A DNA stretch of 27,717 bases from a virus. This document shows, piece after piece, positions 564 to 14,692 of the stretch. The DNA lies in IMG/VR virus record IMGVR_UViG_3300033144_002846, positions 1 through 27,717 of that record, one strand, 5' to 3'. Under the pieces are notes generated by a model that did not search any database, was not told the origin of the DNA, and saw only the letters and a list, made by a program, of their open reading frames with translations. The translations under genes and the position numbers were made by a program. Numbering within the stretch: the stretch's first letter is position 1; each line of letters opens with the position of its first letter.

Positions 564-1478
564 TTATAGGTCAAATAGGCTTTTCACAGCGTCTTCTAGG
601 TCTGTATCTTCTGCTGAAACTTCTTCTTCAACAGGAACTTCTGGTTCTACAACCTCTGTTGCTACGGCTTCCACTGCGGGTTTTTCTTCCCAAGGTGGTT
701 TTTCTGGAGCCACTTCTTTTTTAGGTTCAAAAATAGGATTGTCTGCAACAGTTGCATCTAAAGCAGATTCTGCTCGTCTTGCTGAGAAAATATCTTTCAA
801 ACTTGCACCACTAAGGAAAGATTTAATCTCTCCAGATTCCAAATGTAGTGGAGCCTCAGATAGTTTGTAAAGTTCCTCCGTAACTTCCACTGGGTCATTT
901 TGATGTGGCATAGCAGAAGCAGAAGGTCTCTTCGTCTTCGCTGGAACCATAATCATAATATCAAAGTTGTCAATACCAACTCTTTCGCCAGCTTCATCTA
1001 ATACTGAGCTATTAATTGTTTTTAATTGGTCGTACAGTTCTGTGCCACGATTTAGAATTACAACCTGATTTAAAGGTTTAGGCTCTTCGTTCACTAACAC
1101 AGAGTTACAGTTTGCACATACACTTGGGTAAGTTCCCATAACGGGTTTGTGTACCTGACCACAAGATGCACAGGTTTTGGAAAGAGTTCTATCCAAAGCA
1201 TTGACATAGAAAACCTGTCGTCTTCGTGAATAGCTCTTATCTTCTCTATATCCATCACCCTTTTCTGCCACAATTCTTTTATTGTTTAAACAAATTGGAC
1301 ATTCATCTCCTAAACATTCAAGATTCGCATTATGAATCCAGTGTGTAAAGGTAATGTAAAATCCTTCATCTCCAGGCAAAAGTCTAACGGAATGGTTACC
1401 CGCTGTAAGTTTCAAAAACTCTTTCTTTCGTCCGGTAAATTCACTAGTTTGTTCCATTTCTGGCATTCGCATGTTCAT
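564..1478 (-). CDS. Single-stranded DNA-binding protein, T4 gp32-like, with zinc sites
   Basis: 304 residues. The N-terminal part (GNHSVRLLPGDEGFY at 27-41, then HWIH and a Cys55/Cys60/Cys63 cluster) resembles the core of T4 gp32-type ssDNA-binding proteins, which carry a zinc ion in the OB-fold. A second C4 zinc ribbon is visible at Cys103, Cys106, Cys121, Cys124. Residues from about 250 are a low-complexity Pro/Glu/Val linker ending in an acidic-hydrophobic tip (DLEDAVKSLFDL), the usual partner-binding tail of phage and bacterial SSBs. It would coat ssDNA at the fork and recruit polymerase, helicase and recombinase, which are neighbours. The first of several Met codons is chosen because GGAG sits at proper distance from it. 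A second ribbon is more than T4 gp32 has. Family level is an inference from motifs and context. Confidence 0.75.
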   Translation of the reverse strand: MNMRMPEMEQTSEFTGRKKEFLKLTAGNHSVRLLPGDEGFYITFTHWIHNANLECLGDECPICLNNKRIVAEKGDGYREDKSYSRRRQVFYVNALDRTLSKTCASCGQVHKPVMGTYPSVCANCNSVLVNEEPKPLNQVVILNRGTELYDQLKTINSSVLDEAGERVGIDNFDIMIMVPAKTKRPSASAMPHQNDPVEVTEELYKLSEAPLHLESGEIKSFLSGASLKDIFSARRAESALDATVADNPIFEPKKEVAPEKPPWEEKPAVEAVATEVVEPEVPVEEEVSAEDTDLEDAVKSLFDL

Positions 1479-1489: not shown

Positions 1490-1804
1490 CTAGCCCTCTT
1501 CTGGTGCTTTTGCACTCTTCGGGGCACTATAAAATAATTCTTCAAATTTTTTGCTGGAAGTTACATCTAGTTCATTAATCAGTTCCATTGCTTCTTCGGT
1601 ACTAAGCTTATGAGTAGTTTCTTTTAGTTTAAAATATTTTAAGAAGCTCTTCTCAATTTGAAAAAGCTGAATAGACCTTAAGCGTTTCATTGCTTCATTA
1701 TCAAATGCAACACTTTCTGGAATATCTTCAATTGTATCAGAAAAACTAATGTTCTGGTAATTTCCTAATGAGTATAGTCTAGTTGTCGTTACTGACCTCT
1801 TCAT
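1490..1804 (-). CDS. Hypothetical protein
   Basis: About 104 residues starting MKRSVTTTRLYSLG. The open frame extends further upstream to a TTG at 1840, but the ATG at 1804 is preferred: it follows GGAAAAGGAAA and overlaps the previous gene by 26 bases. The start 'TTRLYSLGNYQNISFSD' looks like a beta-strand segment and the rest is helical. Small proteins with a similar opening occur in many phage replication operons, but I cannot name a function. It sits directly upstream of the SSB gene. Confidence 0.75.
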   Translation of the reverse strand: MKRSVTTTRLYSLGNYQNISFSDTIEDIPESVAFDNEAMKRLRSIQLFQIEKSFLKYFKLKETTHKLSTEEAMELINELDVTSSKKFEELFYSAPKSAKAPEEG

Positions 1805-2096
1805 TTTCCTTTTCCTTTCCCTCGTAAATAAGTCTAGCAATCATAATTCTATCGCCATCCTTATCCATTTCGGACATAAACTCGATAGAGCGGGTACTTC
1901 TGATTTCCTCAATCTTTTCCATATCTTTAGTTGTAATGGTAACTACTCCATTATTCTTAATAAGATAATCAAAAAGCATTACATCTGTCAGAAAGTCCTG
2001 CACATCAAAATTTCCTAAAACTTTCTCAAGTTGCCCCTGTACTTCTTCCTCACTTAATTCCAAATCCTTAGCAAACGCCTTTATCTCTTCTTCCAT
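1779..2096 (-). CDS. Hypothetical acidic protein
   Basis: A 105-residue acidic protein preceded by AAAGGAG at good spacing. It is not recognised. It is the first gene after a strong promoter embedded in the end of the recA-like gene, so it may be made both from the long operon transcript and from that internal promoter. Its end overlaps the next gene. Confidence 0.75.
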   Translation of the reverse strand: MEEEIKAFAKDLELSEEEVQGQLEKVLGNFDVQDFLTDVMLFDYLIKNNGVVTITTKDMEKIEEIRSTRSIEFMSEMDKDGDRIMIARLIYEGKEKENEEVSNDN

Positions 2097-2110
2097 AATT
2101 TCTCCTTTAC

Positions 2111-3139
2111 TTAGTCTAATAGGTCTGCGATAATATCTTCGTCATCGTCAACAGAGACCATAGCTGTCTTGTTAACTATAACATTATAACACACTTCTCT
2201 TATTTTGTCAAGGACTTCTGGATTTTTCCCTAATTCTTCCAGCGTATTATTTAGTCCGTGTCCAAGTCTGTCATCTTCATAATAATAATATGAACCTCTT
2301 GTTTTTACAACGCCTATCAATTTTGCAAACTCAACAGTGTCTCTAGCAGTGTCTACACCCATACCAAAGATAAAGGGTATTGAGTGTGAACGAAATGGCG
2401 GTGCTACTTTGTTTTTCTTCACCGTAAAGGTTGTAAGAATACCAATTTGTTCCTTATCTGATATGATTGGTTGTGGAGCACCAAGCTGAATTCTTATGCT
2501 TGTGTAATGCTTCAAAGCCCAACCCCCAGGAGTACCATAACCTCTTGAGTATCCTCCAATTTTGTCCCTTACCTGATTGATTAACAACAACGCAACATTG
2601 TTTCGTCTAATGTATGGTGCGTTTCTTCTAAAGAACTTAGAAAGTAATCTAGGAACTTCTGCCATTGTCGCATCTTCAAGGTCTTTTACTCTTTCTCTAC
2701 GAGAAGATAGAGCGGCAATTGAGTCTACAATTATAAGAGCAAACATTCCGCTCCTAATACCCCTCTCACAAATTTCCATAGCATCTTCCCCAACTTCTGG
2801 TTGAGTAATTACCATGTTTTGTGGTGAGTATAAACCATCAAGAAGGTCAATTGTATAATTTAAGTCAATCATATTTTCTACATCTATGTACAGAACCTTC
2901 TCCCCAAGTTTGATTGTTTCTTTAGCAATACAATTTGCCAAAGTACTCTTACCTGTAGCTTCTGGTCCAAAGAGTTCTGTAATCTTTCCTCTAGGAATTC
3001 CGCCCACACCTAAAGAAATATCTAAAGAAGTACTTCCTGTGCTTATAGTCTCTAATTCTCTTTCTTCTGTGATTATCAGCTGGTCATCATAATCTGACCT
3101 TACCTCGTTAATAAATTCTTCTATATTCTTATACTCCAT
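2111..3139 (-). CDS. RecA/UvsX-like recombinase
   Basis: 342 residues of the RecA ATPase core, which forms filaments on ssDNA and catalyses strand exchange. Walker A is GPEATGKST at 58-66, Walker B is ALIIVDS at 134-140. A segment from 188 to 211 (NQVRDKIGGYS, then TPGGWALKHY) matches the L2-loop region of bacterial RecA (INQIR.K.G....TTGGNALK.Y). The protein begins with GSTSLDISLGVGGIPRGK, as RecA proteins do. The start overlaps the stop of the peptidase gene as TAATG. It likely works with the SSB and helicase encoded just downstream in recombination-dependent replication or repair. A promoter lies inside its last codons. Confidence 0.92.
   Translation of the reverse strand: MEYKNIEEFINEVRSDYDDQLIITEERELETISTGSTSLDISLGVGGIPRGKITELFGPEATGKSTLANCIAKETIKLGEKVLYIDVENMIDLNYTIDLLDGLYSPQNMVITQPEVGEDAMEICERGIRSGMFALIIVDSIAALSSRRERVKDLEDATMAEVPRLLSKFFRRNAPYIRRNNVALLLINQVRDKIGGYSRGYGTPGGWALKHYTSIRIQLGAPQPIISDKEQIGILTTFTVKKNKVAPPFRSHSIPFIFGMGVDTARDTVEFAKLIGVVKTRGSYYYYEDDRLGHGLNNTLEELGKNPEVLDKIREVCYNVIVNKTAMVSVDDDEDIIADLLD
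2183..2211 (-). promoter_or_regulatory. Internal consensus promoter in the 3' end of recA
   Basis: On the minus strand TTGACA (2211-2206) and TATAAT (2188-2183) are separated by exactly 17 bp, with a TG just before the -10 (extended -10). The predicted start lies about 80 bases before the next gene (ATG at 2096). It would give extra transcription of the distal genes: two unknowns, SSB, a third unknown and helicase. Confidence 0.75.
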
Positions 3140-3681
3140 TACAATTCCTCCACATAATAAGGTGCTCCAACAAACGCATTATACTTGCCAGCTATTTGTA
3201 AAGCACGAATAATCTTTTCTTTTGGTGAAAGTTCTGTTTCACTTAATGATTCCATTACGCCCATAGCATATGCTCTTCCAGACCCCATAGCAGTAAAATC
3301 TTCTGCATAGACATCTATCTGAAAATCTCCATAAAAGTTGTAAACAACGCCCCTATATCCAATTAACAAATAAACAATAACGCCTTCTTCATTATTATCT
3401 ATTTTGGTGAGTCCTCCTTCCGTAAATAGCTCTCTAACAATTGGAACAACTACTGTGATTATATACTTATAGTCATCTTTTCCAGTATTTTTAGGAACGT
3501 CTAGAGAGAATCTTAAAAGGTTGCTTCCCCTAATGCTTCCAGCAGAACCAATAAGAAATTCCCCTACTTTATAAACTTTCTTTTCTTTTTTTATTCTTGT
3601 ATACCCACCTCCTGTACTTGACAGTGAGTCACCCCCCATATAAACCTTTCCGTTTTCAGCTATTGCAACAATGCAAGTCAT
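3139..3681 (-). CDS. HslV/proteasome-beta-like Ntn-hydrolase peptidase
   Basis: 180 residues, the usual length of HslV. It begins M-T-CIVAI with Thr2 as the likely N-terminal nucleophile after Met removal. GGDS (Asp18) matches the conserved Asp17 of mature HslV, KKV at 34-36 matches the Lys33 region, and GSAG at 45-48 the loop after it. The C-terminal part (AMGSGRAYA at 131-139, ETELSPKEK, AL.IAG, ending VEEL) runs parallel to bacterial HslV (IGSGGPYA, ENTELSARE, AL.IAG, IEEL). Known family members are threonine proteases in self-compartmentalising rings, fed by an ATPase (HslU or a proteasomal ATPase). No such ATPase is in this window. It is coupled by TAATG overlaps to genes on both sides. 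It could process a phage protein or use a host unfoldase. Confidence 0.85.
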   Translation of the reverse strand: MTCIVAIAENGKVYMGGDSLSSTGGGYTRIKKEKKVYKVGEFLIGSAGSIRGSNLLRFSLDVPKNTGKDDYKYIITVVVPIVRELFTEGGLTKIDNNEEGVIVYLLIGYRGVVYNFYGDFQIDVYAEDFTAMGSGRAYAMGVMESLSETELSPKEKIIRALQIAGKYNAFVGAPYYVEEL

Positions 3682-3917
3682 TATATTTTTTCCTCAAAGT
3701 CTGGACACTCCCAAATAGGAGCTACTGTTTTATTTCTTATGCAGAAAGCAAAATTTTCTCCTGCGATTCTACAATGTTTATCTGTATCGGGTTTAAACTT
3801 TCCGCAGTCATGGCATAAACAATGTTCGTTATGTAATCCCATATGGTCTGACCTTACCCAAACAGCATTTCCATGATGTTCATAGTAAATATAATAATTT
3901 TCTTCTTTCTTCCCCAT
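3681..3917 (-). CDS. Small cysteine-rich protein
   Basis: 78 residues with seven-odd Cys/His ligands: EHCLCHDCGKF, then HCRIAGENFAFC, and a final WECPDFEE. This pattern recurs in small phage proteins of unknown role and suggests one structural zinc site. The start overlaps the preceding stop as TAATG and its own stop overlaps the peptidase start in the same way, so its translation is tied to both. Confidence 0.78.
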   Translation of the reverse strand: MGKKEENYYIYYEHHGNAVWVRSDHMGLHNEHCLCHDCGKFKPDTDKHCRIAGENFAFCIRNKTVAPIWECPDFEEKI

Positions 3918-4189
3918 TAAAATTCTCTCCCCTCAAAAAGTTCTGGATGTTCTGCTCTAATCCAACAAATAAACGCATTACCAACTACTTTTAGATATGG
4001 CATTGGCTCATCACCATAAAAGAACTTGTCATAATAATCTCTTACATCACCAGATAGTCTTGCTTCTTGACCTTTCGGTGAACGATTAAGCCAAGTGTTA
4101 CCCCACCTAAGGTCATCAGCACGTAACTGAGCTTCAAACGCTTCCATAAATTCAGGAAGGAAGTCCCAAACTTTAATTTCTTCATTCAT
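3917..4189 (-). CDS. Hypothetical protein
   Basis: 90 residues, preceded by AAAGGAGAGAG. It is rich in Trp and Arg; a 'LRWGNTWLNR' segment and a 'PMPYLKVVGNAFICWIRAEHPELF' type end are the notable parts. I have seen similar short proteins beside phage nucleotide or replication genes, but I cannot assign a function. It overlaps the next gene. Confidence 0.75.
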   Translation of the reverse strand: MNEEIKVWDFLPEFMEAFEAQLRADDLRWGNTWLNRSPKGQEARLSGDVRDYYDKFFYGDEPMPYLKVVGNAFICWIRAEHPELFEGREF

Positions 4190-4216
4190 TCTCTCTCCTT
4201 TTTTTATTTGTTCCTC

Positions 4217-4324
4217 TCATCCACTATGTTCTCCAATATACACTAATAACCACAGAATTCCTAACCCACCAACAAGATAAAAAATACATTCAAATATAAT
4301 CTGGTCTATTGGTTTTTTATCCAT
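4217..4324 (-). CDS. Predicted 35-residue single-pass membrane protein
   Basis: A short frame of 35 codons that starts at 4324, overlapping the polymerase stop as TAATG, with a TGGAG Shine-Dalgarno 7 bases upstream inside the end of the polymerase gene. The product has a short charged start (MDKKPIDQ), a hydrophobic helix of about 20 residues (residues 9-30, IIFECIFYLVGGLGILWLLV) and a short polar end. Size, signal and overlap argue for a real gene that automatic callers would miss. Function unknown. Confidence 0.6.
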   Translation of the reverse strand: MDKKPIDQIIFECIFYLVGGLGILWLLVYIGEHSG

Positions 4325-6237
4325 TACTTACTCCAATATGGCAGTACTTTTGTACCAACCTCTGTTGAAATCTGTGTCATCAAAATTTCTCCAGCCTTTT
4401 TCATTGCATTAACCATGAATGCTTCTGCTTCTACCACTATGTCATCATCCACTTCCGCAACAATTTCATCGTGAACAGTCATAACAATTTTAAACTTATC
4501 TTCCCAAGGATTGTCGTTTTGCATCATGAGTAACGCATACTTTAACATGTCTGCTGAACCACCTTGGACAATATGATTGAAACCTTCTCTATTAATTGAA
4601 CCTTTGAATTTGTACATGTCTTGGGTAGTTTCCCAAAAACTGTCTTTTCTAAATCCTCTACGTCTACCAATAGGTGTAACTGAGTATCTAATTTTCCACA
4701 CTAAGTTCTGAACATCTTTCTGAAACTTAGACAACTTAGGAAACCCATTTACAAACTTAACTAATATTTTTTCTGCTTCTTCTGTGGTAACTCCCAACGT
4801 GTTAGCTAACCCATATGCAGAAGACCCATATAATATAGCAAAATTAACTGTTTTACCTATATTACGTTGTTCCTCAGTTATTTCTTCCAAAGGAATGTCA
4901 GACAACATAGAAGCTGTAGCTGTATGCATATCTTCGCCTTTCTGGTAAGCCTCAATAATTGCTGGCTCTCCTGATAATTCTCCTGCGAGTCTAAACTCTT
5001 GCTGTGAATAGTCAGCAGTAATTATCTTCTTTCCCTCAGGAGCAATAAAACAACTCCTATATTCACTGCCTTTGATAATGTTCTGTAAGTTGGGCTTTCT
5101 TGATGAAAATCTGCCTGTTGTAGTGCCTATTTGATTGAATTTGGCGTAAATTCTCCCATCTTCTTTAACATTTGCAAGAAAATCCAACCCATAAGTAGTA
5201 ACACGCTTGTAATTTTTTCTAAAGTCGAGTAATAGCTTGGCTATTGGTAGTCTTTTGGCAAGTGATACCAATACTTTCTCCGCAGTTGAGTCTACCCCTG
5301 AACCCATAAGTTGTAAAAACTTCTTTACTTGTTTTGGCGAAGCTAAATTCAACCTTTCTTTAAATTCTTGCTCTATAAGAACCATATTTTCGGGAGTATC
5401 AAAAGTAATAACTTCAAGACGTTTGCCCTCTTTCTTGGTTTTCTTGAAGGGAATATGCATATGTAAAAGAAAATCCCGTATGTCCACAAAAAGCTCATGT
5501 GGAATAATCTCATCTAAACAAAATCTCCATACAGCATCAATAATTTCCTCTCTCAAAGTCTCTGATTTTTCTAATGCAATTTCATACAATCCCATCCACT
5601 TATCACGGTCAATCATAACTCCGTTGCATTCCATTATGGTTACTACAGGAACCAACTGCATTTCCAAACTCAAAACTTTTTGCATTTTCTTACCTGCAAT
5701 AAGCTCTAATTGCTGTTTTCTTATTTCGTCCAACCACAAAACATCTACAGCACCATAGATTAACATATCCTGAGTTAACTCAGCACCTGTTTCTTTTATT
5801 GCAACAAACTTCATGACTGTATCTTTCTCAACAGTTTCTCCAAGATACTTATAACCTAATTCTTGATAGCTAGGATATTTTTCTCTAGCTTCTGTAATCA
5901 AGTATTCCGCAATCATGGTACAGTGAATATTTCTAAATAGTATACCATACTTTTCAAATGTAAATTTAATATCAAATTTAGCATTATGAGCCAGTATCGG
6001 TTTATTTGACATAAATAATAATTCTAGGATATACCTTGTAACTCTATCTTGAAGTGTCCGTGTGTTAATTAAATAAGTATTCCCGTTAATTCTAAATTGA
6101 ATTAACAGGATTATGTCTTCTTTGAAATCAAAACCAGTAGTCTCAATATCATAGGAGATAGTTTCAGTCTTATCTAAGTCGTTTTGGATTTGTATTACTT
6201 CTTCAGCTGTCTCCACCAGAACGAATAAATTTTCCAT
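4324..6237 (-). CDS. Family A DNA polymerase (polymerase I-like) with 3'-5' exonuclease domain
   Basis: 637 residues. Proofreading exonuclease motifs are all present: DIETTG at 30-35, HNAKFD at 84-89, and YGAVD ending at Asp165. Polymerase motifs: TGRFSSRKPNLQN at 374-386, motif A DYSQQEFR at 409-416 (catalytic Asp409), motif B R458-x3-K462-x3-F466 ending in ILYG, and motif C HDE at 589-591. There is no 5'-3' exonuclease domain, as is usual for phage PolA enzymes. It would be the replicative polymerase. The start has AGGAAAAAT before the ATG; a consensus promoter lies about 140 bp upstream. The residue at the position of E. coli Pol I Phe762 is Phe466. Confidence 0.96.
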   Translation of the reverse strand: MENLFVLVETAEEVIQIQNDLDKTETISYDIETTGFDFKEDIILLIQFRINGNTYLINTRTLQDRVTRYILELLFMSNKPILAHNAKFDIKFTFEKYGILFRNIHCTMIAEYLITEAREKYPSYQELGYKYLGETVEKDTVMKFVAIKETGAELTQDMLIYGAVDVLWLDEIRKQQLELIAGKKMQKVLSLEMQLVPVVTIMECNGVMIDRDKWMGLYEIALEKSETLREEIIDAVWRFCLDEIIPHELFVDIRDFLLHMHIPFKKTKKEGKRLEVITFDTPENMVLIEQEFKERLNLASPKQVKKFLQLMGSGVDSTAEKVLVSLAKRLPIAKLLLDFRKNYKRVTTYGLDFLANVKEDGRIYAKFNQIGTTTGRFSSRKPNLQNIIKGSEYRSCFIAPEGKKIITADYSQQEFRLAGELSGEPAIIEAYQKGEDMHTATASMLSDIPLEEITEEQRNIGKTVNFAILYGSSAYGLANTLGVTTEEAEKILVKFVNGFPKLSKFQKDVQNLVWKIRYSVTPIGRRRGFRKDSFWETTQDMYKFKGSINREGFNHIVQGGSADMLKYALLMMQNDNPWEDKFKIVMTVHDEIVAEVDDDIVVEAEAFMVNAMKKAGEILMTQISTEVGTKVLPYWSK

Positions 6238-6277
6238 ATTTTTCCTACCCTTTTTTTTCGTGTGTATTCATACATTC

Positions 6278-6360
6278 TAATATACTATTTATATAATTAA
6301 TTAATATACTAAATATAGTAGTCTATTAATCGGAGTTAATTAAGGTTAATATATCTATAT
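6278..6360. other. Very AT-rich leader with short repeats upstream of the polymerase gene
   Basis: This non-coding stretch between a promoter and the polymerase start is almost pure A/T. It holds a 10-bp direct repeat TAATATACTA (6278-6287 and 6302-6311), two TTAATTAA-type palindromes, and a small dyad TACTAAATATAGTA (6308-6321). It is transcribed as the 5' leader of the polymerase mRNA. It may be an unwinding element of an origin, or a regulatory leader; neither is shown. Confidence 0.4.
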
Positions 6361-6374
6361 GGATGTATCTAATG

Positions 6375-6403
6375 ATTATACCATACTTTGATTCATTTGT
6401 CAA
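6375..6403 (-). promoter_or_regulatory. Consensus promoter for the polymerase/replication operon
   Basis: On the minus strand TTGACA (6403-6398) and TATAAT (6380-6375) are 17 bp apart, with an extended -10 (TGG before TATAAT). The -35 box overlaps the last codons (Leu-Asp-Lys-stop) of the upstream gene. The leader to the polymerase ATG at 6237 is about 130 bases. Confidence 0.85.
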
Positions 6404-6608
6404 GCCCCAATTCTAAAGGAGAATGTGGAGATTTAATACATTCTTTTCCAATCATAAGTCTACCACAAATACTGCAATATTCTTTATATTCTTTTTTCTT
6501 TTTAACTAAAGAATCAATATATTCATTAAAAGATTTAATATCTCCATACACAAATAGTAAATTATATCCAGCAGATTTAATTTTCTCTGCTAAGGTAATA
6601 TCTAGCAT
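6393..6608 (-). CDS. Small hypothetical protein with a CxxC motif
   Basis: 71 residues if started at the ATG at 6608: a helical, lysine-rich first part and CSICGRLMIGKEC near the end. The start is uncertain. The ATG lies only three bases after the -10 box of a strong promoter (6612-6639), so a transcript from that promoter would begin inside or after the start codon. The gene would then need read-through from further upstream, with AAGGATGG as a distant ribosome site, or a later start that I cannot see. Its stop lies within the -35 box of the polymerase promoter. Confidence 0.55.
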   Translation of the reverse strand: MLDITLAEKIKSAGYNLLFVYGDIKSFNEYIDSLVKKKKEYKEYCSICGRLMIGKECIKSPHSPLELGLDK

Positions 6609-6611
6609 GAT

Positions 6612-6639
6612 ATTATACCATCCTTTTTTTGTTTGTCAA
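6612..6639 (-). promoter_or_regulatory. Consensus promoter, 16-bp spacer
   Basis: On the minus strand TTGACA (6639-6634) and TATAAT (6617-6612) are 16 bp apart, again with TGG before the -10. It lies in the 39-base gap between two leftward genes and would fire toward the 71-residue frame and the polymerase operon. Confidence 0.75.
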
Positions 6640-6647
6640 CCATCAGT

Positions 6648-7133
6648 TTACTCAAGCTCAGGTGCAAAATTTTCCCATGTAGGACAAATATGAAATGCTC
6701 CCTCCTCAATATGTGCCAAACAGCATTTGCAAATCCAAGCACGGGCTGTTCCAGTTGCATACTGCTCTTCTTGAATATAGTCACTATTTGTAGTAGTTGC
6801 ATAGCCATGCTGTAAACAGTTACGCTGACCACATTTTGGACAGCCCTGCTCTCTTGCTATAACATCAAAGACATCAAAGAAGCTACCATCAAGTACACGA
6901 CCACCTCTAGTTCTTAAAAGAGTCCAGTGATTCTTTTCTCTGTAACCATCATACTTTATTGTATACCCATTTCCAATATCGACAAATAAAAATTGTGGTG
7001 ACTGTAATGAATAGGCAGGTAATTTATCAGGAACAGGCATTTCTCTTCCACAGTCTGCACACACATGGTCATGTGGATGTCCTTTATAAACTTTACCCTT
7101 TGTTTGTCCACAATTTATACACGGTTTACCCAT
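6648..7133 (-). CDS. Cysteine-rich hypothetical protein with multiple zinc-ribbon motifs
   Basis: 161 residues. The N-terminus has a four-cysteine ribbon (Cys5, Cys8, Cys25, Cys28). A second cluster is CPKCGQRNC (98-106) with CKCC (135-138) and Cys150. Between them is a 60-residue stretch with no recognised motif. Such proteins usually bind nucleic acid or protein, but no specific role can be given. The ATG follows AGAGGAG at good spacing and one base separates it from the upstream gene. Confidence 0.78.
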   Translation of the reverse strand: MGKPCINCGQTKGKVYKGHPHDHVCADCGREMPVPDKLPAYSLQSPQFLFVDIGNGYTIKYDGYREKNHWTLLRTRGGRVLDGSFFDVFDVIAREQGCPKCGQRNCLQHGYATTTNSDYIQEEQYATGTARAWICKCCLAHIEEGAFHICPTWENFAPELE

Positions 7134-7134
7134 T

Positions 7135-7461
7135 TTACAACTCCTCTACATGATAAATAGAACATCCTAAATTTTCACAAGTTCTTCCCCAAAGTCTGAC
7201 AGTTAGCTCTTCTTTACAGTATGGACATAGATGTTTTTCCTTAAATATAAAAATAATCTGTGCCCTAGACCTGAAAACAGGACCTGCAAAAGTACCTTTA
7301 AACGGAACCTTTTCTTTTTTCTCTTCTTTTATATATTCTTCTAGCAAAAGATTTTTTACCCATTGAGAAAAAGGCTGTTCTTCATACGCCATTCCTTCTG
7401 GAGTACATAACCAGTCTTGATATAGGTCGTAAGCATCCTGATATGTTTCTTTTTTATTCAT
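7135..7461 (-). CDS. Hypothetical protein with a C-terminal zinc motif
   Basis: 108 residues. The first two thirds are acidic-aromatic and helical; the end has CPYCKEE and CENLGC, a likely C4 zinc site. The ATG overlaps the stop of the upstream membrane protein by 8 bases and has GGAG 8 bases before it. Function not recognised. Confidence 0.75.
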   Translation of the reverse strand: MNKKETYQDAYDLYQDWLCTPEGMAYEEQPFSQWVKNLLLEEYIKEEKKEKVPFKGTFAGPVFRSRAQIIFIFKEKHLCPYCKEELTVRLWGRTCENLGCSIYHVEEL

Positions 7462-7576
7462 CTACACCGCTCCAACAAAAAATATTTACAAACAGGATAA
7501 CTAAAAGCCAGTCAATAAGGCTGTTTGCATTAAATAACATCCCTACAATGAGAACCCAAAAGATAAAACTACACAT
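7454..7576 (-). CDS. Predicted 40-residue membrane protein, two hydrophobic segments
   Basis: The open frame extends upstream to 7639, but the ATG at 7576 has GGAG 7 bases before it and overlaps the stop of the previous small gene by 8 bases, so I choose it. The 40-residue product is nearly all hydrophobic: CSFIFWVLIVGMLF, a short NANS turn, then IDWLLVILFVNIFCW. It is likely an inner-membrane hairpin. No family recognised. Confidence 0.6.
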   Translation of the reverse strand: MCSFIFWVLIVGMLFNANSLIDWLLVILFVNIFCWSGVDE

Positions 7577-7700
7577 CTTTAAGCTCCGAAATACCATAAA
7601 CAATAGCACCCACCCCCATAACAATACCTCCAACAACATACTCCTCTGTTAACAGGAGTACAAGTCCAGCACTAGTGATAAGAGTTGCTAAAAATTCCAT
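7569..7700 (-). CDS. Predicted 43-residue membrane protein, first gene of the leftward arm
   Basis: The ATG at 7700 is preceded by AAGGAGG, about the strongest Shine-Dalgarno in the window. The frame continues upstream to 7787, but that would begin at the edge of the -10 box, so the short version is right. The product (MEFLATLITSAGLVLLLTEE, then VVGGIVMGVGAIVYG) has two predicted membrane helices. It is the first protein made from the leftward strong promoter, so it probably acts early. Function unknown; holin-like, superinfection-exclusion or host-takeover roles are all conceivable. Confidence 0.68.
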   Translation of the reverse strand: MEFLATLITSAGLVLLLTEEYVVGGIVMGVGAIVYGISELKDV

Positions 7701-7710
7701 CAATTCCTCC

Positions 7711-7739
7711 TTGACAAACTGATTAAAGTATGGTATAAT
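7711..7739 (+). promoter_or_regulatory. Rightward consensus promoter
   Basis: TTGACA (7711-7716), 17 bp, TATAAT (7734-7739), with TGG before the -10. Predicted start near 7746, giving a leader of about 80 bases to the NADAR gene ATG at 7826. It faces the leftward promoter across about 46 bp. Its spacer AACTGATTAAAGTATGG resembles that of the polymerase promoter. Confidence 0.88.
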
Positions 7740-7748
7740 GTTCTTAAT

Positions 7749-7775
7749 GGTAAAAAGAAGGTTGATTTTCTTACC
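7749..7775. promoter_or_regulatory. Possible operator: imperfect dyad between the two promoters
   Basis: GGTAA at 7749-7753 and TTACC at 7771-7775 frame an A-rich/T-rich dyad; 8 of 13 half-site positions match. The centre (7762) coincides with the centre of the surrounding inverted repeat. It covers the start regions of both promoters, where a symmetric repressor or activator would affect both. No cognate regulator is identified. Confidence 0.35.
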
Positions 7776-7785
7776 CTCTATAGAC

Positions 7786-7814
7786 ATTATACCACATAAC
7801 TACCTAGTTGTCAA
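7786..7814 (-). promoter_or_regulatory. Leftward consensus promoter
   Basis: On the minus strand TTGACA (7814-7809), 17 bp, TATAAT (7791-7786), with TGG before the -10. Predicted start near 7779; the leader runs through the rightward promoter to the ATG at 7700. Its -35 abuts the Shine-Dalgarno of the rightward NADAR gene. Confidence 0.88.
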
Positions 7815-7825
7815 GGAGGAATTCA

Positions 7826-8284
7826 ATGAATATAGGCTCAGGAAATAGATACCCTGCTAATAGTTTATCAAACTTTGCACCTCACCCTTTCGTAATTGAT
7901 GGGGTAAATTGCAATAGCATGGAAGGATTTCTACAATCGTTGAAGTTTAAAAATCCAGACATGCAGGTAGAAGTGTGCAAGCTGGTTGGAAAATCTGCCA
8001 AATTCAAAGGGAAACCTAAGAAATGGTGGAAAACTCAGACACTTTGGTGGAAAGGAATAGAAATTGACAGGCACGGAGAGGAGTACCAAGAATTATTGGA
8101 TAGGGCTTACTGGGCTTTATGTAGAAATACAGGCTTTCAGAAGGCACTCTTAGCCTCAAGAAACTCTGCTCTTACTCACTCATTAGGAAACAGAGACTCA
8201 CATAGAACTATCTTAACAATTAGGGAATTTTGTGGGAGACTTGAACATATGAGAGAAAAATTACAAGACTACTATGAGAAATAA
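7826..8284 (+). CDS. NADAR-family (YbiA-like) N-glycosidase-type protein
   Basis: 152 residues from the ATG at 7826, which has AAGGAGG 6 bases upstream; the frame is open further back but only into the promoter. SLSNFAPHPFVIDG at 13-26 followed by SMEGFLQSLKF at 31-41 is the NADAR signature (LSNF..hpf..DG, then the E..Q..KF motif). A WWKTQTLWWKG insert at 67-77 and the C-terminal LGNRDSHRTILT segment are compatible with phage members. NADAR proteins hydrolyse N-glycosidic bonds in ADP-ribose-like or riboflavin-pathway compounds, and some remove ADP-ribose from guanine bases in DNA, countering DarT-type toxins. As first gene under a strong promoter, an anti-defence role is plausible. Family good, exact substrate unknown. 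Confidence 0.8.
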   Translation: MNIGSGNRYPANSLSNFAPHPFVIDGVNCNSMEGFLQSLKFKNPDMQVEVCKLVGKSAKFKGKPKKWWKTQTLWWKGIEIDRHGEEYQELLDRAYWALCRNTGFQKALLASRNSALTHSLGNRDSHRTILTIREFCGRLEHMREKLQDYYEK

Positions 8285-8294
8285 GGAGAACTAA

Positions 8295-8573
8295 ATGGAT
8301 ACTTGGAATGTAGACCTAATTTTAAAGAGAAATGGAAAAGAAGATTTAAAGAATACAAAATACATACGCATGGATGGTCTTACTCCGCAAATGCAAAATA
8401 TTAAATTAAGAAATCTTACTGCGAAAATGACAGAAGATTTTATTTCTTTTTTAAATAATGAAAATGACTATACACAAAGATGCGGAAACTGTGGTGGAGA
8501 GTACCTGAGAAGACTTATGGGAAATGAATATTTTCTATACTGTCCCGATTGTGGAATGGGAGAGAACGAGTGA
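8295..8573 (+). CDS. Small zinc-ribbon protein
   Basis: 92 residues after AAGGAGAACTAA. The C-terminal third holds CGNCGG and CPDCG, a C4 zinc ribbon spaced by about 16 residues. The N-terminal part is basic and unrecognised. It overlaps the next gene's GTG start. Function not known. Confidence 0.72.
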   Translation: MDTWNVDLILKRNGKEDLKNTKYIRMDGLTPQMQNIKLRNLTAKMTEDFISFLNNENDYTQRCGNCGGEYLRRLMGNEYFLYCPDCGMGENE

Positions 8574-9229
8574 ACAGAGAGAACTTGCGAAAAACAATAC
8601 GAGACTTTCTAAAAGATTTTAACTGTCACTACACTATTGACTTAGACACTGAGAATGGATTTCCCTTGGTTGATATATTATCACCTAAGGGAACAATAAG
8701 AGAAGGGTTGTTAGAGATTGAACACATTTCTGATGAACTTGCTGATGAAGTTTTCAACTCACTTCCTAAAATGAATCACGAATGGAAAGAAAGACCAAAA
8801 GGCTTTCTTGCTGACTTCACACCACAGCATGATGAGGAAAGGAAGAATTATGTAAGAGAGTTACACCAAGTTATTTGGAAATTACTAAAGGTAATAGGTA
8901 TTTCGTGGAGTGGGGAACTTAAGAATTGTGTTACTACCACCCTTGATAGCCTAAAATTAGAGGGTGAGGAATTGTCACAAGAAAAAATAGCAGGAATATA
9001 TGCTAAAAAGAAATATGACTATGCTTCCTCTCCTGATACCTTAGCTGGACATGTTTACCAAAGAGGCTGGCTAGACTGTTTTGAACACTACCAGCCAAAA
9101 ACACAAGAACACAGCCAATTACTAGAAATATCCAAGCTGAATTTTTATATGTTAAAACGAATTGGTGGTTTTTCAGATGAACTCCCCACACCACCAGAGG
9201 GGGATAATGAGAAAACAAGAGATACTTAA
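8570..9229 (+). CDS. Hypothetical protein
   Basis: 219 residues from GTG at 8570, which overlaps the previous TGA as GTGA and follows GGGAGAG at the right distance. An in-frame TTG at 8549 is less likely. It appears helical and soluble, with no catalytic motif I recognise. The end (residues 205-219) is polar and overlaps the next gene, whose Shine-Dalgarno (AGAGGGGG) lies inside it. Confidence 0.75.
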   Translation: MNRENLRKTIRDFLKDFNCHYTIDLDTENGFPLVDILSPKGTIREGLLEIEHISDELADEVFNSLPKMNHEWKERPKGFLADFTPQHDEERKNYVRELHQVIWKLLKVIGISWSGELKNCVTTTLDSLKLEGEELSQEKIAGIYAKKKYDYASSPDTLAGHVYQRGWLDCFEHYQPKTQEHSQLLEISKLNFYMLKRIGGFSDELPTPPEGDNEKTRDT

Positions 9230-9434
9230 AATAGGCAAAAGACTTGTCGCAGAATATACACACGCTAGCAGGGTAGAGGTTCTAAATAATTTTGCCGAAG
9301 AGATAGAAGAACTAAAGTACGAGGGAGCTAGAACAGTATTAGAGGAATTTTTACGAAAAGTAGATTGGTTTATGTGGGACAAGAAAACAATGAAAAATAT
9401 TGCCAATTGGATAAATAAAAAGGAGAAACGATGA
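9207..9434 (+). CDS. Small helical hypothetical protein
   Basis: 75 residues starting MRKQEILK. The frame is open back to 9162, but the ATG at 9207 directly follows AGAGGGGGATA, so it is preferred. Charged and helical; the end contains a Trp/Lys-rich stretch. No family recognised. Stop overlaps the next ATG as ATGA. Confidence 0.7.
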   Translation: MRKQEILKIGKRLVAEYTHASRVEVLNNFAEEIEELKYEGARTVLEEFLRKVDWFMWDKKTMKNIANWINKKEKR

Positions 9435-9838
9435 AAGAAACACTAGAAAAACTATTAGCAGAGTATTCAGAATTTCATGTAGATTCAAACAGGATGACCT
9501 TTACTCAGAAAAATTGGACTGAGTTTGCTGAGGCTGTAGAGGAAAAAGCAGTCACCTTTGACCCAAATGGCTTTGAACTTATGGGAGAAGGGATAGAGTA
9601 CTGGAAAAATTTGGAGATTTACGCCAAAGAAAACATGACAGATGAGCTTATTAAAGACAAGGTTATTTTAGAGTCCGAAGTTGCAAGGCTAAAAGAGGAA
9701 TTAGAATCAGAAAAGAAGGTAAAGGAAGAGAATTTCAGGGCTTTTGAAGAAACTAAAACTGAACTAAACGAGTTTGTCGAATCTGGATGGGAAGCTAATG
9801 GAAATAAGCTTTACCTAAAGGGAGAGCAACATTCCTAA
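9431..9838 (+). CDS. Hypothetical coiled-coil protein
   Basis: 135 residues, preceded by AAGGAG. Residues 70-120 (KVILESEVARLKEELESEKK and onward) are a clear coiled coil, so it probably forms dimers or binds a partner. Overlaps both neighbours (ATGA and TAATG), so it is coupled in translation with them. No function recognised. Confidence 0.75.
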   Translation: MKETLEKLLAEYSEFHVDSNRMTFTQKNWTEFAEAVEEKAVTFDPNGFELMGEGIEYWKNLEIYAKENMTDELIKDKVILESEVARLKEELESEKKVKEENFRAFEETKTELNEFVESGWEANGNKLYLKGEQHS

Positions 9839-10227
9839 TGGCTAGTCGTAAAAAAGTAGCTACTTGTAAAGGGGTAAGAAAAGACGGAAAGCCTTGCAAA
9901 GGTAAGGGGTATGAAGATGGGTACTGTAAACACCATATACACCAAAAGCCAAAAAAAGAGATAAAAAAATCACGTGCAAAGAGCATAAAGGCATATCGTG
10001 AATATCTAAAATCTCCTGAGTGGGCAGTAAAGCGTCAAATAGTTCTTAGTGTTCTAGGTGAAACCTGTAAATTGTGTGGAAAATCCGCAACTACTGTTCA
10101 CCACAACACATACAAGACATTATTTGAGGAAAACATCCTGAAAGACTTAACAGTTTTATGTTCAAGCTGTCATGCAAAGTACCATAAAAAAGGAAATTAT
10201 CGTGGCAATAAAACTAGACGAAGGTAA
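9838..10227 (+). CDS. HNH endonuclease with N-terminal zinc finger
   Basis: 129 residues. An HNH nuclease core is visible: CKLCG at 77-81, HHN at 88-90, then LTVLCSSCHAKYH at 104-116, giving the two CxxC pairs and the catalytic His89 region. The N-terminus has a C10/C20/C30/H32 cluster (CKGVRKDGKPCKG, then YCKHH), a small zinc motif found on some phage HNH and other proteins. It sits inside an operon with overlapping neighbours and does not interrupt any gene, so it may be a packaging-associated or host-directed nuclease, or a free-standing homing enzyme. It lies about 600 bp before the terminase genes. Confidence 0.85.
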   Translation: MASRKKVATCKGVRKDGKPCKGKGYEDGYCKHHIHQKPKKEIKKSRAKSIKAYREYLKSPEWAVKRQIVLSVLGETCKLCGKSATTVHHNTYKTLFEENILKDLTVLCSSCHAKYHKKGNYRGNKTRRR

Positions 10228-10435
10228 ATATAAATGTTTCTTCTGTCATGAAGAGTATAAGTTTGAAAGAGAAGCAGATGAGTGTGTTACTAGGCATAAC
10301 TTATTGTATGTGCCAATGACATCAGAGGAAATGATGCAACTTATCAGATATATTTATGAACAACAGAATCCACCAGTAGAGCTTATTGGTAGAATGAAAA
10401 AACTAATGAAAGAGAAGGCAGGTAAAACTCATTGA
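10202..10435 (+). CDS. Small zinc-finger hypothetical protein
   Basis: 77 residues from GTG at 10202 (VAIKLDEGKYKC), chosen because AAGGAAATTATC precedes it; an ATG at 10172 has no ribosome site. CFFCHEEYKF at 18-27 and DECVTRH give a CxxC...CxxxH zinc site; the second half is a helical EEMMQLIRYIYEQ stretch. Similar small proteins are common in phage accessory regions; role unknown. Confidence 0.68.
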   Translation: MAIKLDEGKYKCFFCHEEYKFEREADECVTRHNLLYVPMTSEEMMQLIRYIYEQQNPPVELIGRMKKLMKEKAGKTH

Positions 10436-10632
10436 GCAAAAAGCTAACAATGTCAAAAAAAGAGTGTTTATACTGCAAAGTTAATAATAAAAAATCAAGA
10501 GATACAAAATTTAGAGTGGTAGCATTAGACAGACCTTATATTAACCTGTGGTTTCACAGGGCATGTTTGGTTAAGCTGAAAGACACTTTAAATGACTTTT
10601 TGATAGAAAACAGAGAAAAATGGGTAAAATAA
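10432..10632 (+). CDS. Small hypothetical protein with zinc-type motif
   Basis: 66 residues if the TTG at 10432 is the start, overlapping the previous stop as TTGA; AGG 9-10 bases upstream is a weak site. An ATG at 10450 is the alternative but has no ribosome site. CLYC at 12-15 and HRAC at 42-45 could bind zinc. The rest is basic and helical. Function unknown. Confidence 0.55.
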   Translation: MSKKLTMSKKECLYCKVNNKKSRDTKFRVVALDRPYINLWFHRACLVKLKDTLNDFLIENREKWVK

Positions 10633-10664
10633 TCATTAGATTTTATCAAGAATACAAGGAAATA

Positions 10665-10673
10665 TGATATAAT
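10665..10673 (+). promoter_or_regulatory. Possible extended -10 promoter before the terminase genes
   Basis: TGATATAAT at 10665-10673 is a good extended -10. The -35 is poor: the best is TTATCA 19 bp upstream. From TATAAT onward 15 bases (10668-10682) are identical to the leftward strong promoter's start region. It lies at the boundary between accessory and virion genes, so it could help late expression. Confidence 0.4.
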
Positions 10674-10845
10674 GTCTATAGAAACAGTTAAAAAACCTAA
10701 AAAAATACAAGAAATTGAAAAAGAGGTTAAAAAGAGGATGCCTAAAAAGATTGGGTGTCCTATCTGTGGAGACACAGAGAATTTAGTACCATCAGGAAGA
10801 TGTGTTACATGTCTTAGTTGCGGGTGGTCTAAATGTAGCCTATAG
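10672..10845 (+). CDS. Orphan zinc-ribbon protein resembling the C-terminal ribbon of ribonucleotide reductase
   Basis: 57 residues (MSIETVKKPKK start) with AAGGA 11 bases upstream. The C-terminal half is CPIC, then a GRCVTCLSCGWSKC end: two CxxC pairs followed by a GWSKC tail. This matches the small ribbon found at the end of B12-dependent ribonucleotide reductases and some other enzymes (CP.CG..L...GC.TC..CGYSKC). No reductase gene is nearby. If the overlapping -10 element is a true promoter, the gene may start at the ATG at 10738, keeping the whole ribbon (35 residues). A nucleic-acid or protein-binding adaptor is plausible. Confidence 0.65.
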   Translation: MSIETVKKPKKIQEIEKEVKKRMPKKIGCPICGDTENLVPSGRCVTCLSCGWSKCSL

Positions 10846-10854
10846 GAGGGGAGT

Positions 10855-11556
10855 TTGGCAAAGAGAGTAAAATCGAAAGGAAGTTTACGTAACCTAGCAC
10901 AATACAAAAATCTCTCAGATGCGGAATTTGATATAGTTTGGGAAGAAAGACAGGCAAAAGTACTGACAACTTTCAAGCCAAAACAAGAACTAGAGGATAG
11001 GATACTGGACATGATGGAACTGTTCAGAGAGGACTATGCCCTAGATGATTTAAAATTTAATGATACACAAGTTCTTAGGGCACTTATACGTGCCTTATTA
11101 ACTTTAAGTGACTACGAAGATACTCTTTATACTGAACAACAAGAAGGGGTCGGAGCAGAAAACATCAGAGTTATTGGGGAACTAAACAAATTTATTTCTA
11201 GCCTGAGAAAAGATATCTCAGACATGCAGAGAGATTTAAATATTACACGTAAGACTCGTAAAGAAGAAAAAGAAGATTCAATCGAAGCCTATATCAAAAA
11301 CATTCAGGAGAAGGCTAATAGGTTTTATAAAAATAAGGTTTATAGGGCTATTTGTCCAGAGTGTGGAATGATGTTGTTTGATGGATGGTTTTTATATCCT
11401 GATGAAGACAACAAGCTTACCATTGAGTGTGGTAGAATGCTTGAACAAAAGGAAGAAGATGAGGAAGCAAAGTGTACTGGAAAGTTGGAACTTACCTCTT
11501 CTGAGTTGAGAGACTTGCAAGAAGAGTATAAAGATAAGTTTCCAGAGGGACTCTAG
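10855..11556 (+). CDS. Putative small terminase subunit
   Basis: 233 residues from a TTG at 10855 after an excellent AGGAGGGGA. It directly precedes the large terminase. The N-terminal half is helical (a plausible DNA-recognition domain), residues about 100-160 form a probable coiled coil, and the end carries CPECG (167-171), Cys192 and Cys207, a likely zinc ribbon. Small terminases recognise the packaging site and regulate the large subunit. There is no direct sequence match I can point to; the call comes from position, size and helical layout. Confidence 0.55.
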   Translation: MAKRVKSKGSLRNLAQYKNLSDAEFDIVWEERQAKVLTTFKPKQELEDRILDMMELFREDYALDDLKFNDTQVLRALIRALLTLSDYEDTLYTEQQEGVGAENIRVIGELNKFISSLRKDISDMQRDLNITRKTRKEEKEDSIEAYIKNIQEKANRFYKNKVYRAICPECGMMLFDGWFLYPDEDNKLTIECGRMLEQKEEDEEAKCTGKLELTSSELRDLQEEYKDKFPEGL

Positions 11557-11559
11557 TAT

Positions 11560-13137
11560 ATGTCTGTAGTAGAAAAGCTTTCTGTTAAAGAACAGCAACT
11601 CATAAGAATCTTTAAAAATCCTGTTTTGTTTGGAGAATTTTTACACGAAATAGATTCAAACGATGAGGATTTACGAGAAGAAGTTACTGAGATAGAACAA
11701 AATATGGAATTTACAATCTACCAGAAAGAGTTATTGGTAGATACAAATCCATACATTTCTCTAAGAGCAGCACGTGCAGTAGGTAAAACGTTTGCTATTG
11801 TACACATGATTATCTGGATACTGTTTAACAATCTTTATCCTGGGGAGTACATAATTTACTCCGTGCCAAACAAAGCACAGCTAGACCCTGTGTGGGAAAT
11901 GTTAAAAATGTTCTTTAGAACTAATAGCTTACTAAAGAATTTTGTAAATTACAGAAGTGGAATTAATAATTCAGAGCATAGAATTGAAACAAAAGCACAT
12001 GCTACTCTTATGTGCAGAATTGCTGGACAATCAGGAAAGGGGGAAAATGTTATTGGTCTTCACACACCCTTCTTTATTGTAGACGAATCTGGATATTATC
12101 CTTGGGGAACGTGGCTGGAACTTCAAGCTACAATTAACTATTGGATGAGTGGGAGTAAACTTATTGTCTCAGGAGTTCCTACTGGAATTCGTGAGGAAAA
12201 TGTAAACTTTCACGCAGATAAGAATGATGATACCTATAGTAGATATAGAATTGATTCTTATCAAAATCCTAGATTTGATGACGAAGCAGAAGAGGATGCT
12301 ATACGAAGATACGGGGGAAAAACCACAGAGGAATTTGCCCATTTTGTTTTAGGACAACACGGTTCTCCTATCTACGCAGTATTTGATAGAAGACTAATGA
12401 ATATCAAATCTTACCCAGTATATAAAATAGCCCTAAATGGTATTACTTTTGGAGAGAACTTCAACGACTATTTTCAAAAAGTACAAATACTTCCAGCAAT
12501 GCCGAAAAACCAGGGTGTAATCTTTGGAGTAGACCTTGGATATACAGAACCCACAGCAATTTTCATTCTATATTTAGATGAGAACATGAATTTTAAATTT
12601 CATTCCAAAATTCGCTTAGTAAAGGTTCCTTATCCAATTCAAAAAAGATTCATAGATGCCTTGGACACAAAGTATAGTCCCTCATTGATAGGGATGGATG
12701 AAGGACACGCAGGAATGAGTGTAATTCAGGATTTACTAAAGGGAAAACAGTATCAAAAGAAAAACTATGAGGATTACCTCATACCAATCAAATTCAATTC
12801 AGCAATCATACTTGGAATAGACGAAGACGGTAAAGAAATAAAATCAAGAGCAAAGCCTTTATCTGTTTCACTCCTACAGGAGTACACAAACAAACACAGA
12901 ATCATTTATTCTACTACGGATATGGATACTGTAACTGAGTTGGAAAGGATGTCTTATACAAAAAACCCAACTACTGGAATAATTTCATATAAGACAATGA
13001 CACCAGCGGGGGGACATAAAGGCGAAGACCACTTTACTGCATCACTTTTAAGTGGGGTGCTGGCTTATTATCTCACAAATGAGAGTTTAGATTTCCGAAG
13101 TAGACAAATCAAGTTATTAGGAACAGGTTGGTTATAA
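11560..13137 (+). CDS. Terminase large subunit
   Basis: 525 residues with both domains. ATPase: RAARAVGKT at 69-77 (Walker A), FFIVDE at 171-176 (Walker B plus catalytic Glu), SGVPTG at 204-209 (coupling motif). Nuclease (RNase H fold): GVDLGYTEPTA with Asp325, SLIGMDEGHAG with Asp380, and GEDHF with Asp490. It pumps DNA into the prohead through the portal and cuts the concatemer. Its TAA overlaps the portal start. Full length for the family. Confidence 0.95.
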   Translation: MSVVEKLSVKEQQLIRIFKNPVLFGEFLHEIDSNDEDLREEVTEIEQNMEFTIYQKELLVDTNPYISLRAARAVGKTFAIVHMIIWILFNNLYPGEYIIYSVPNKAQLDPVWEMLKMFFRTNSLLKNFVNYRSGINNSEHRIETKAHATLMCRIAGQSGKGENVIGLHTPFFIVDESGYYPWGTWLELQATINYWMSGSKLIVSGVPTGIREENVNFHADKNDDTYSRYRIDSYQNPRFDDEAEEDAIRRYGGKTTEEFAHFVLGQHGSPIYAVFDRRLMNIKSYPVYKIALNGITFGENFNDYFQKVQILPAMPKNQGVIFGVDLGYTEPTAIFILYLDENMNFKFHSKIRLVKVPYPIQKRFIDALDTKYSPSLIGMDEGHAGMSVIQDLLKGKQYQKKNYEDYLIPIKFNSAIILGIDEDGKEIKSRAKPLSVSLLQEYTNKHRIIYSTTDMDTVTELERMSYTKNPTTGIISYKTMTPAGGHKGEDHFTASLLSGVLAYYLTNESLDFRSRQIKLLGTGWL

Positions 13138-14333
13138 TGGCAAGAAAAAAAGATAGCACAGTAAAAGCAGAAGCGACAGCTAGACTGCAAAAAGAAAAAT
13201 TAAGCGACCCAAAAGCAATAAGTCATATGACTTCTGCTATTTGGGATACCCCAGCTAACAGCTACAATGTTGCGAATCCTTGGAGAGATGCTCCGTATAA
13301 TAAGCCAAAAGCAGGAGCACTTACAGCAAAAGAGTATGAGGAAGTAGTAGACAGATGTAGGTATTTTTATAGAAAAGACCCCATAGCTGGTACTACAATA
13401 GATAAATTAATAGAACTTGGTGTTAATGAATTAATCATTGATAAGGGGTCACTTTCAGACAATCAGTATAGAATATTAGAAGGAATAAAGCCACAAATCA
13501 TTGATTTTCTACAGGAGGGAGCACAGGAGTTCCTTGTTTCTGGATTAGTGGTTCCATCCATTACTTTTGAATGGAAAAAGAAATCTTATCTAGAAGATAT
13601 GGGAGTAAAGAAATATCCTAAAGCATGGCTACCTAAAGATATGTGGTTTAGAAATCCTAAGAATATTGAATTAAAAGATTCCTTTATTTCTAGAGAGCCT
13701 AGATATTACGTAAATATTCCTACAGAATATTTAAAACTCCTACAAGAGTCTCTAACACCAACTACACAAGAAGATTCAAAAACTGTAACAGATTTTCTAA
13801 CCTCATATCCAGGATTTGTAGAACAAATTAAATCAGGAAATAGAAAGATTCTTTTGAAAGACGAGCATAGCTTATTTATTAGAAGAAAACCAATGGTTGA
13901 TACGCCGTATCCAACACCATATCTATATTCTGCACTTGAGTCTTTAGAACACAAAAGAAACATTCGTGCTATGGACTTTGCACTAGCATCCAGAGTAATT
14001 GAAGCTATACAAATATTTAAACTTGGGGATAAGGATTTTCCTTTAACACAGGAAACAGAATATCAGCTGGAAGACTTAAAAGCTCAAATTAGTTCAAGAT
14101 ATGCAGTATCACCAGCTAGTGTAGAAAGAGTATTTCAACTGTTTGGAAACCATACCCTTGATGTTAATTGGGTAATACCTCCAGTAGAGGCTCTTTTGAG
14201 CAATGACAAATACAAAGAAGTAAATAACGACATCATCTACGCTTTAGGTTTTCCAAGAGTAAAAGAAGTGGGTCAGCAGACCATGACTTCGCAACCCTTT
14301 CTCCTATTGCTACAATGGAGAACTTTAGAGTAA
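13137..14333 (+). CDS. Portal protein, N-terminal part of a frame-broken gene
   Basis: The ATG at 13137 overlaps the terminase stop as TAATG (a TTG at 13128 is rejected). About 376 residues read as a siphovirus portal: helical start, long alpha-beta body, DKYKEVNNDIIYALGFPRV near the end. After the AAAA at 14261-14264 the frame continues with a stretch (EVGQQTMTSQPFLLLLQW) that does not look like portal and stops at 14333. In the -1 frame, the expected portal sequence goes on (RSGSADHDFATLSPIATMENF) into the next open frame. The portal is the DNA gate of the capsid and should be about 500 residues; the joined reading gives 517. Confidence 0.85.
   Translation: MARKKDSTVKAEATARLQKEKLSDPKAISHMTSAIWDTPANSYNVANPWRDAPYNKPKAGALTAKEYEEVVDRCRYFYRKDPIAGTTIDKLIELGVNELIIDKGSLSDNQYRILEGIKPQIIDFLQEGAQEFLVSGLVVPSITFEWKKKSYLEDMGVKKYPKAWLPKDMWFRNPKNIELKDSFISREPRYYVNIPTEYLKLLQESLTPTTQEDSKTVTDFLTSYPGFVEQIKSGNRKILLKDEHSLFIRRKPMVDTPYPTPYLYSALESLEHKRNIRAMDFALASRVIEAIQIFKLGDKDFPLTQETEYQLEDLKAQISSRYAVSPASVERVFQLFGNHTLDVNWVIPPVEALLSNDKYKEVNNDIIYALGFPRVKEVGQQTMTSQPFLLLLQWRTLE
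14256..14282 (+). other. Frameshift position inside the portal gene
   Basis: The reading switches from frame 0 (GFPRVK) to the -1 frame (RSGSADHDF) at the run AAAA, 14261-14264. One extra A restores a single 517-codon frame from 13137 to 14689. There is no canonical X-XXY-YYZ slippery heptamer here, so a missing base in an A-run (assembly or real mutation) is more likely than programmed shifting. Confidence 0.75.
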
Positions 14334-14689: not shown

Positions 14690-14692
14690 AAA

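Follow-up and report, generated by a model that had tools for sequence, protein, structure and literature searches.

Facing consensus promoters at the boundary of two gene arms in a viral record and its relatives

Two extended-consensus promoters were found to face each other at positions 7711-7739 (+) and 7814-7786 (-) of the window, which is the whole 27,717-nt stretch of DNA that was analysed. The site is best read as a compact two-way early start point, at which host polymerase would launch both gene arms and the two promoters would compete by occlusion and collision. We give this reading a probability of roughly 60%. Promoter activity and its timing, mutual exclusion and the lack of lysogeny are inferred.

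The window is one entire IMG/VR record. No end repeats were found in it, and it is possibly a fragment. As the preliminary description had stated, the promoters lie at the boundary of two arms: annotated genes on the left were read leftward and those on the right were read rightward. The left arm (-) encodes a single-strand DNA-binding protein (SSB), RecA/UvsX, an HslV/proteasome-like protein and DNA polymerase A (PolA). The right arm (+) encodes the PF08010 protein, an HNH protein, the large terminase subunit (TerL), the portal protein and structural-type genes. The features of the arms were as follows:

564..1478, - strand: single-strand DNA-binding protein, left arm (E 8e-4)
2111..3139, - strand: RecA/UvsX-like recombinase, left arm
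2183..2211, - strand: extra consensus leftward promoter within the recA-like gene, 12/12 with TG
4324..6237, - strand: DNA polymerase A, left arm
6375..6403, - strand: extra consensus leftward promoter, 12/12 with TG
6612..6639, - strand: extra consensus leftward promoter, 12/12 with TG
7569..7700, - strand: first gene of the left arm, 43 aa, membrane-bound in appearance, no Pfam or PHROG match
7826..8284, + strand: first gene of the right arm, 152 aa, PF08010 (Phage_30_3), E 6.5e-55
10855..11556, + strand: conserved gene immediately before TerL, right-arm synteny marker
11560..13137, + strand: terminase large subunit, right arm

The gene of the HslV/proteasome-family peptidase was located at 3139-3681 (-), between the recA-like and polA genes. 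For the PF08010 protein (7826..8284), no PDB match was found, and the NADAR-like motif in it is a label given by eye only.

The boundary itself contained the following features:

7702..7717: left arm of an inverted repeat, 16 bp, made up of the leftward gene's Shine-Dalgarno and the -35 box of the rightward promoter
7711..7739, + strand: rightward promoter, TTGACA-17-TATAAT, extended -10 (ATGG), 12/12, predicted output to the right arm
7740..7785: stretch between the -10 boxes, 46 bp, read from the sequence
7749..7775: imperfect central dyad GGTAAAAAGAAGGTTGATTTTCTTACC, no excess over shuffled sequence (p 0.27-0.77)
7786..7814, - strand: leftward promoter, TTGACA-17-TATAAT, extended -10 (GTGG), 12/12, predicted output to the left arm
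7808..7823: right arm of the inverted repeat, 16 bp, made up of the -35 box of the leftward promoter and the rightward gene's Shine-Dalgarno

The score of 12/12 is a match to TTGACA/TATAAT, the sigma-70/sigma-A consensus. Both promoters proved to be as first described, with full scores, 17-bp spacers and TG before the -10 box. An intergenic gap of 125 bp holds both of them. The first genes begin at 7700 (-) and 7826 (+), in both cases with 10-12 bp between the start and the opposing promoter's -35 box. When start sites were placed 6-7 nt past the -10 boxes, they fell at ~7746 (+) and ~7779 (-), i.e. ~33 bp apart. From these predicted starts, the 5' ends of both transcripts would be complementary over ~34 nt.

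The promoter scan found no other near-consensus promoter near either first gene in the correct direction. As each first gene has its sole near-consensus promoter past the opposing one, the transcription units should overlap, in support of the earlier claim that polymerase leaving one promoter runs over the other. If the first genes are transcribed, their polymerase most likely starts beyond the opposing promoter and crosses it.

Five 12/12 sites, all with TG, were found by the scan in positions 1-20000. Three of them lay elsewhere in the leftward arm (6639-, 6403- and 2211-). No 12/12 promoter was found in 19900-27717, and a second consensus promoter was absent from the ~20 kb of rightward genes (7740-27717). 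With no such promoter in the right arm, the late genes need read-through or another promoter type. The promoters at 6375-6403 (-) and 7710-7739 (+) shared 87% identity over 30 nt despite their opposite directions, a likeness that suggests promoter copying within the phage.

Chance was assessed in the window and across IMG/VR. When the 125-bp region was shuffled by dinucleotides 300 times, none of the shuffles came up to the window's best facing pair. A search of IMG/VR for TTGACA-17-TATAAT-N31-61-ATTATA-17-TGTCAA found 93 stretches, grouped into ~70 sequence clusters, and the control with a spacer of 22 bp found none. The difference of 93 vs 0 indicates that facing consensus promoters are a real and recurrent layout, which is frequent and overlooked in viral contigs.

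The gap from -10 to -10 across the ~70 clusters, which are maybe not independent, peaked at 38 and at 46-50 bp, approximately one helical turn apart. A separate group of ten (L006, L012, L016, L023, L034, L040, L042, L046, L062 and L072) had TACGGAAA-like repeats within both spacers, gaps of 45-52 bp and a -10 box preceded by TA in place of TG. Judged by these features, the group looks like operator-bearing temperate-phage switches.

Relatives were sought by promoter pattern and by protein (PF08010 protein, TerL, a TerL profile and a PolA profile). Ten loci, window included, combined the same arm layout (PolA/RecA leftward; the gene at 10855, TerL and portal rightward) with facing promoters at the boundary. 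The -10 gaps were 46 bp in the window, L005/L041, L073 and L079, 42 bp in L014/L100 and L017/L101, 48 bp in L089, 45 bp in L162/L161, 31 bp in L160 and 82 bp in L142. L073 and L089 were reached via the pattern only. Six records (L005, L100, L101, L162, L160 and L142) came from the protein searches, which makes the test unbiased by the promoter pattern.

Identity across the ten loci fell to ~48-56% for TerL and to ~33-38% for PolA. In each of them, the pair exceeded 300 of 300 shuffles; a p-value combined over the loci was set aside, as it counts related contigs as independent. In 179 kb of stored DNA, 8 of the 10 loci had one strong facing pair each, all at the boundary and none elsewhere; the pairs of L160 and L142 were below the strong-pair cut-off. 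The distance between inferred start sites was 29-35 bp in the eight strong cases. In L041, the rightward promoter was identical at 29 of 29 bases, and the leftward promoter was kept with two spacer changes.

More distant members (L165, L166 and L206) were found by a PolA alignment search of viral contigs; a single-sequence PolA search of the same kind of data found nothing. In the distant L139 and L166, the -10 boxes overlapped (gap -3, p ~0.001 each), and the L139 pair exceeded 1000 shuffles. L165 had a weaker facing pair (p ~0.002), and at the boundary of L206 no facing pair was found. L036 was discarded as a relative: it had a facing pair, yet was unrelated. Named relatives were also searched for: the phage collection gave no DNA match, TerL gave two weak matches and the PolA matches were generic.

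The surroundings of the promoters varied. The first genes differed: PF08010 was seen in both the window and L005, whereas L073 had the next window gene and the other loci small zinc-ribbon-like genes. In L142, a tRNA-Trp gene (anticodon CCA, 1373-1448) was located between the facing promoters; it is predicted to lie within the rightward leader and to be antisense from the other promoter. Across these loci, the promoter pair persists, and neighbours, spacing (31-82 bp) and symmetry change freely.

Some genes of the relatives were interrupted. In L005, the closest relative, the PF08010 gene (1031-1489) was broken by one in-frame TAA and one in-frame TAG in place of the window's CAA and GAG, which may reflect decay or stop-codon recoding. 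PolA of L073 (7700-10585) and TerL of L005 (5034-8828) and L079 (2620-5349) were split by long in-frame insertions, which are probably inteins. The window's PolA and TerL were uninterrupted.

The two arms had been described as a perfect inverted repeat of 15 bp. The match was indeed perfect, and the length was corrected to 16 bp (7702-7717 vs 7808-7823); a repeat finder gave the same repeat as 24 nt at 88%. It was also seen on both sides, as described before, that each -35 box abuts the Shine-Dalgarno of the gene read in the opposite direction: the fused motif was TTGTCAAGGAGGAATTCAATG on the right and its mirror on the left. The mirror symmetry comes from the fusion of either -35 box with the opposing gene's Shine-Dalgarno. 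Such a fusion would pack two promoters and two leaders into 125 bp. Within the clade, it was often seen on the right side (window, L073, L162, L017, L079, L089 and L139). As a predictor of a facing promoter, it was abandoned: TCCTCCTTGACA-17-TATAAT was found in 30 contigs, and only 4 of them, all of the window's clade, had a 12/12 partner.

A comparison of the 125-bp region across relatives, as proposed in the preliminary description, was run. The facing pair was kept and the symmetry was mostly lost. In six relatives, the perfect match beside the -35 box was 4 bp (L041), 13 bp (L073), 0 bp (L014), 2 bp (L017), 1 bp (L079) and 1 bp (L089). Hence, a long repeat was kept in L073 alone, and both promoters remained perfect in all six. 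The drop to 0-4 bp in five relatives lends no support to the idea of the symmetric repeat as a functional unit. The symmetry is a by-product of packing two constrained motifs and not a conserved element.

Consequently, the repeat, being an unconserved sum of -35 and Shine-Dalgarno motifs, was rejected as an operator or inversion site. A promoter-inverting (phase-variable) element was rejected as well, since the repeat is unconserved and inversion would yield the same two directions. With regard to a recombinase for inversion, the one model searched, PF00589 integrase, had no match.

Several other readings of the site were weighed. In a lysis-lysogeny switch of the P2/186 type, one promoter would be lytic and the other lysogenic, with the repressor elsewhere or of an unrecognised fold. 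The site shares orientation and spacing class with these switches (40-60 bp, PMC7498355). Moreover, Cro/CI-type HTH proteins flank many IMG/VR facing pairs: the proteins beside them matched HTH_3 in 23 of 64 and HTH_26 in 22 of 64 cases (overlapping sets; 6 of the 64 came from the window's clade), and HTH_3/HTH_26 beside facing pairs is the signature of Cro/CI switches. In the clade itself, integrase PF00589 and HTH_3 had no match in 7 records and HTH_26 had none in 10, with 14 of 14 control genomes positive; the records searched are fragments or of uncertain completeness, and a repressor could lie outside them. Set against the 23 of 64, the clade without HTH matches is unlike the switch-type majority. 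No HTH family occurred among the genes flanking the promoters, which agrees with the earlier remark that no repressor gene adjoins them. The first genes encode a membrane peptide, PF08010 or small zinc-ribbon-like proteins, which are not regulators and vary between relatives. Both promoters are near-perfect, in contrast to the strong/weak pair in 186, and the left promoter feeds DNA polymerase and RecA but no lysogeny operon. Finally, no relative of TerL was detected in 84,980 bacterial and archaeal genomes, which fits a non-lysogenising phage, short of proof. We consider a switch of this type quite unlikely.

Control by overlapping transcripts (excludon-like or antisense) would mean that the two 5' ends anneal, or are cleaved by RNase III, and that the mRNAs tune each other. 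The ~34 nt of predicted complementarity, the foldable sequence at the start of both predicted transcripts and the known analogue scbA-scbR (53-bp overlap, PMC3134472) are consistent with it. We nevertheless regard it as unlikely: the overlap in the clade varies from below zero (L139 and L166) to ~69 nt (L142), and no pairing element is conserved. The 46-bp gap also falls within the 45-55 bp of the helD/pps-type motif (PMC12802891), so the pair could be a sensor of the RNA polymerase state, in which inhibited or modified polymerase jams the faster promoter first and the balance of the arms shifts. However, the antisense promoter of helD is geneless and has a 19-bp spacer, whereas here both promoters are consensus and both precede genes. 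In addition, the gap is 31-48 or 82 bp in relatives, and phages are not known to use such a sensor. We hold this reading to be very unlikely. It is highly improbable that the central dyad serves as an operator or as a shared 5' stabilising hairpin around which the promoters were placed. Centred hairpins were significant in L079, L089 and L162, with different sequences in each, but in the shuffle test they were not significant in the window, L041, L014 and L017 and marginal at most in L073. With significance in three relatives only, a central hairpin was dismissed as a general feature. That a single promoter is in use and the other is a consensus look-alike is hardly credible, since each of the two is perfect and ten records keep the pair; losing either would deprive one arm of its near-consensus promoter.

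In the two-way early start point that we favour, for a phage that is probably obligately lytic, host sigma-70/sigma-A RNA polymerase would recognise both extended consensus promoters. The rightward promoter would drive the right arm and the leftward promoter the replication arm, and each polymerase would have to pass over the opposing promoter on the way to its first gene. Open complexes extend to about +20. With starts ~33 bp apart, they would overlap by a few bp, and the two promoters should not be occupied together. A polymerase on its way out would occlude, block or evict at the other promoter. Without a repressor, this would not be a switch: the relative strength of the promoters would decide how polymerase is divided between the arms.

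A small stochastic model of the promoter pair was run with assumed rates. Two equal promoters each gave 57-79% of their solo output, and a promoter at least 3-fold weaker gave 29-46%. The modelled pair would share polymerase and exaggerate differences, and it would not latch. Steric exclusion would not be universal in the clade, given the 82-bp gap with the tRNA gene in L142.

A broader claim would be that a whole lytic-phage lineage relies on a repressor-free, mutually exclusive consensus pair for its central early control. Polymerase competition and collision alone would then set the balance of the replication arm against the other arm, or re-set it during infection, for example when phage or host alters RNA polymerase. 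We hold this extension to be rather unlikely.

Facing promoters are known mainly as repressor-bearing lysis-lysogeny switches or as single-gene interference devices. In P2-like phages, they are 40-60 bp apart, and pR of 186 interferes with pL but not the reverse (PMC7498355). Of the likeness to P2/186 that had been noted, the geometry stands (46 bp, within 40-60); the searches found no immunity repressor, integrase or operator. The window shares with 186 pR-pL and P2 Pe-Pc the facing sigma-70 promoters, the overlapping divergent transcripts and the expected mutual interference (PMC7498355). In 186 and P2, a lysogenic operon with the immunity repressor is on one side, and Apl/Cox operators are between the promoters. 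In contrast, the window has no recognisable regulator on either side, its two promoters are consensus and a replication operon lies on the left; the dyad test gave no significant dyad between the promoters.

The helD/pps pair of Bacillus subtilis likewise has facing promoters with 45-55 bp between the -10 boxes and interference free of a repressor (PMC12802891). Half of that pair is an antisense, non-coding promoter with a 19-bp spacer, whereas in the window both have 17-bp spacers and both precede gene arms. Neither the repressor expected of P2/186 nor the antisense promoter expected of helD/pps was found, so the window was filed in neither class.

In scbA-scbR of Streptomyces coelicolor, divergent genes have facing promoters and 5' ends that overlap by 53 bp (PMC3134472). 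One of the two genes is a regulator of the pair and the location is a bacterial chromosome, whereas the window's pair is at a phage arm boundary. The opposed promoters Pc/Pr of pLS20 share one DNA stretch in a Gram-positive element (PMC4207663); they overlap back to back, with the -10/-35 of one on the -35/-10 of the other, and Pr is weak and depends on RcoLS20.

No case of facing early promoters in lytic phages was found in the open-access literature searched, which is weak evidence. Compared with the systems above, a conserved pair in apparently lytic phages in which no repressor was found is a natural case of selection on interference or on plain compactness. The near-perfect pair with coding arms on both sides is a clean system for polymerase sharing at ~33 bp, and gaps ranging from -3 to 82 bp occur naturally within the clade.
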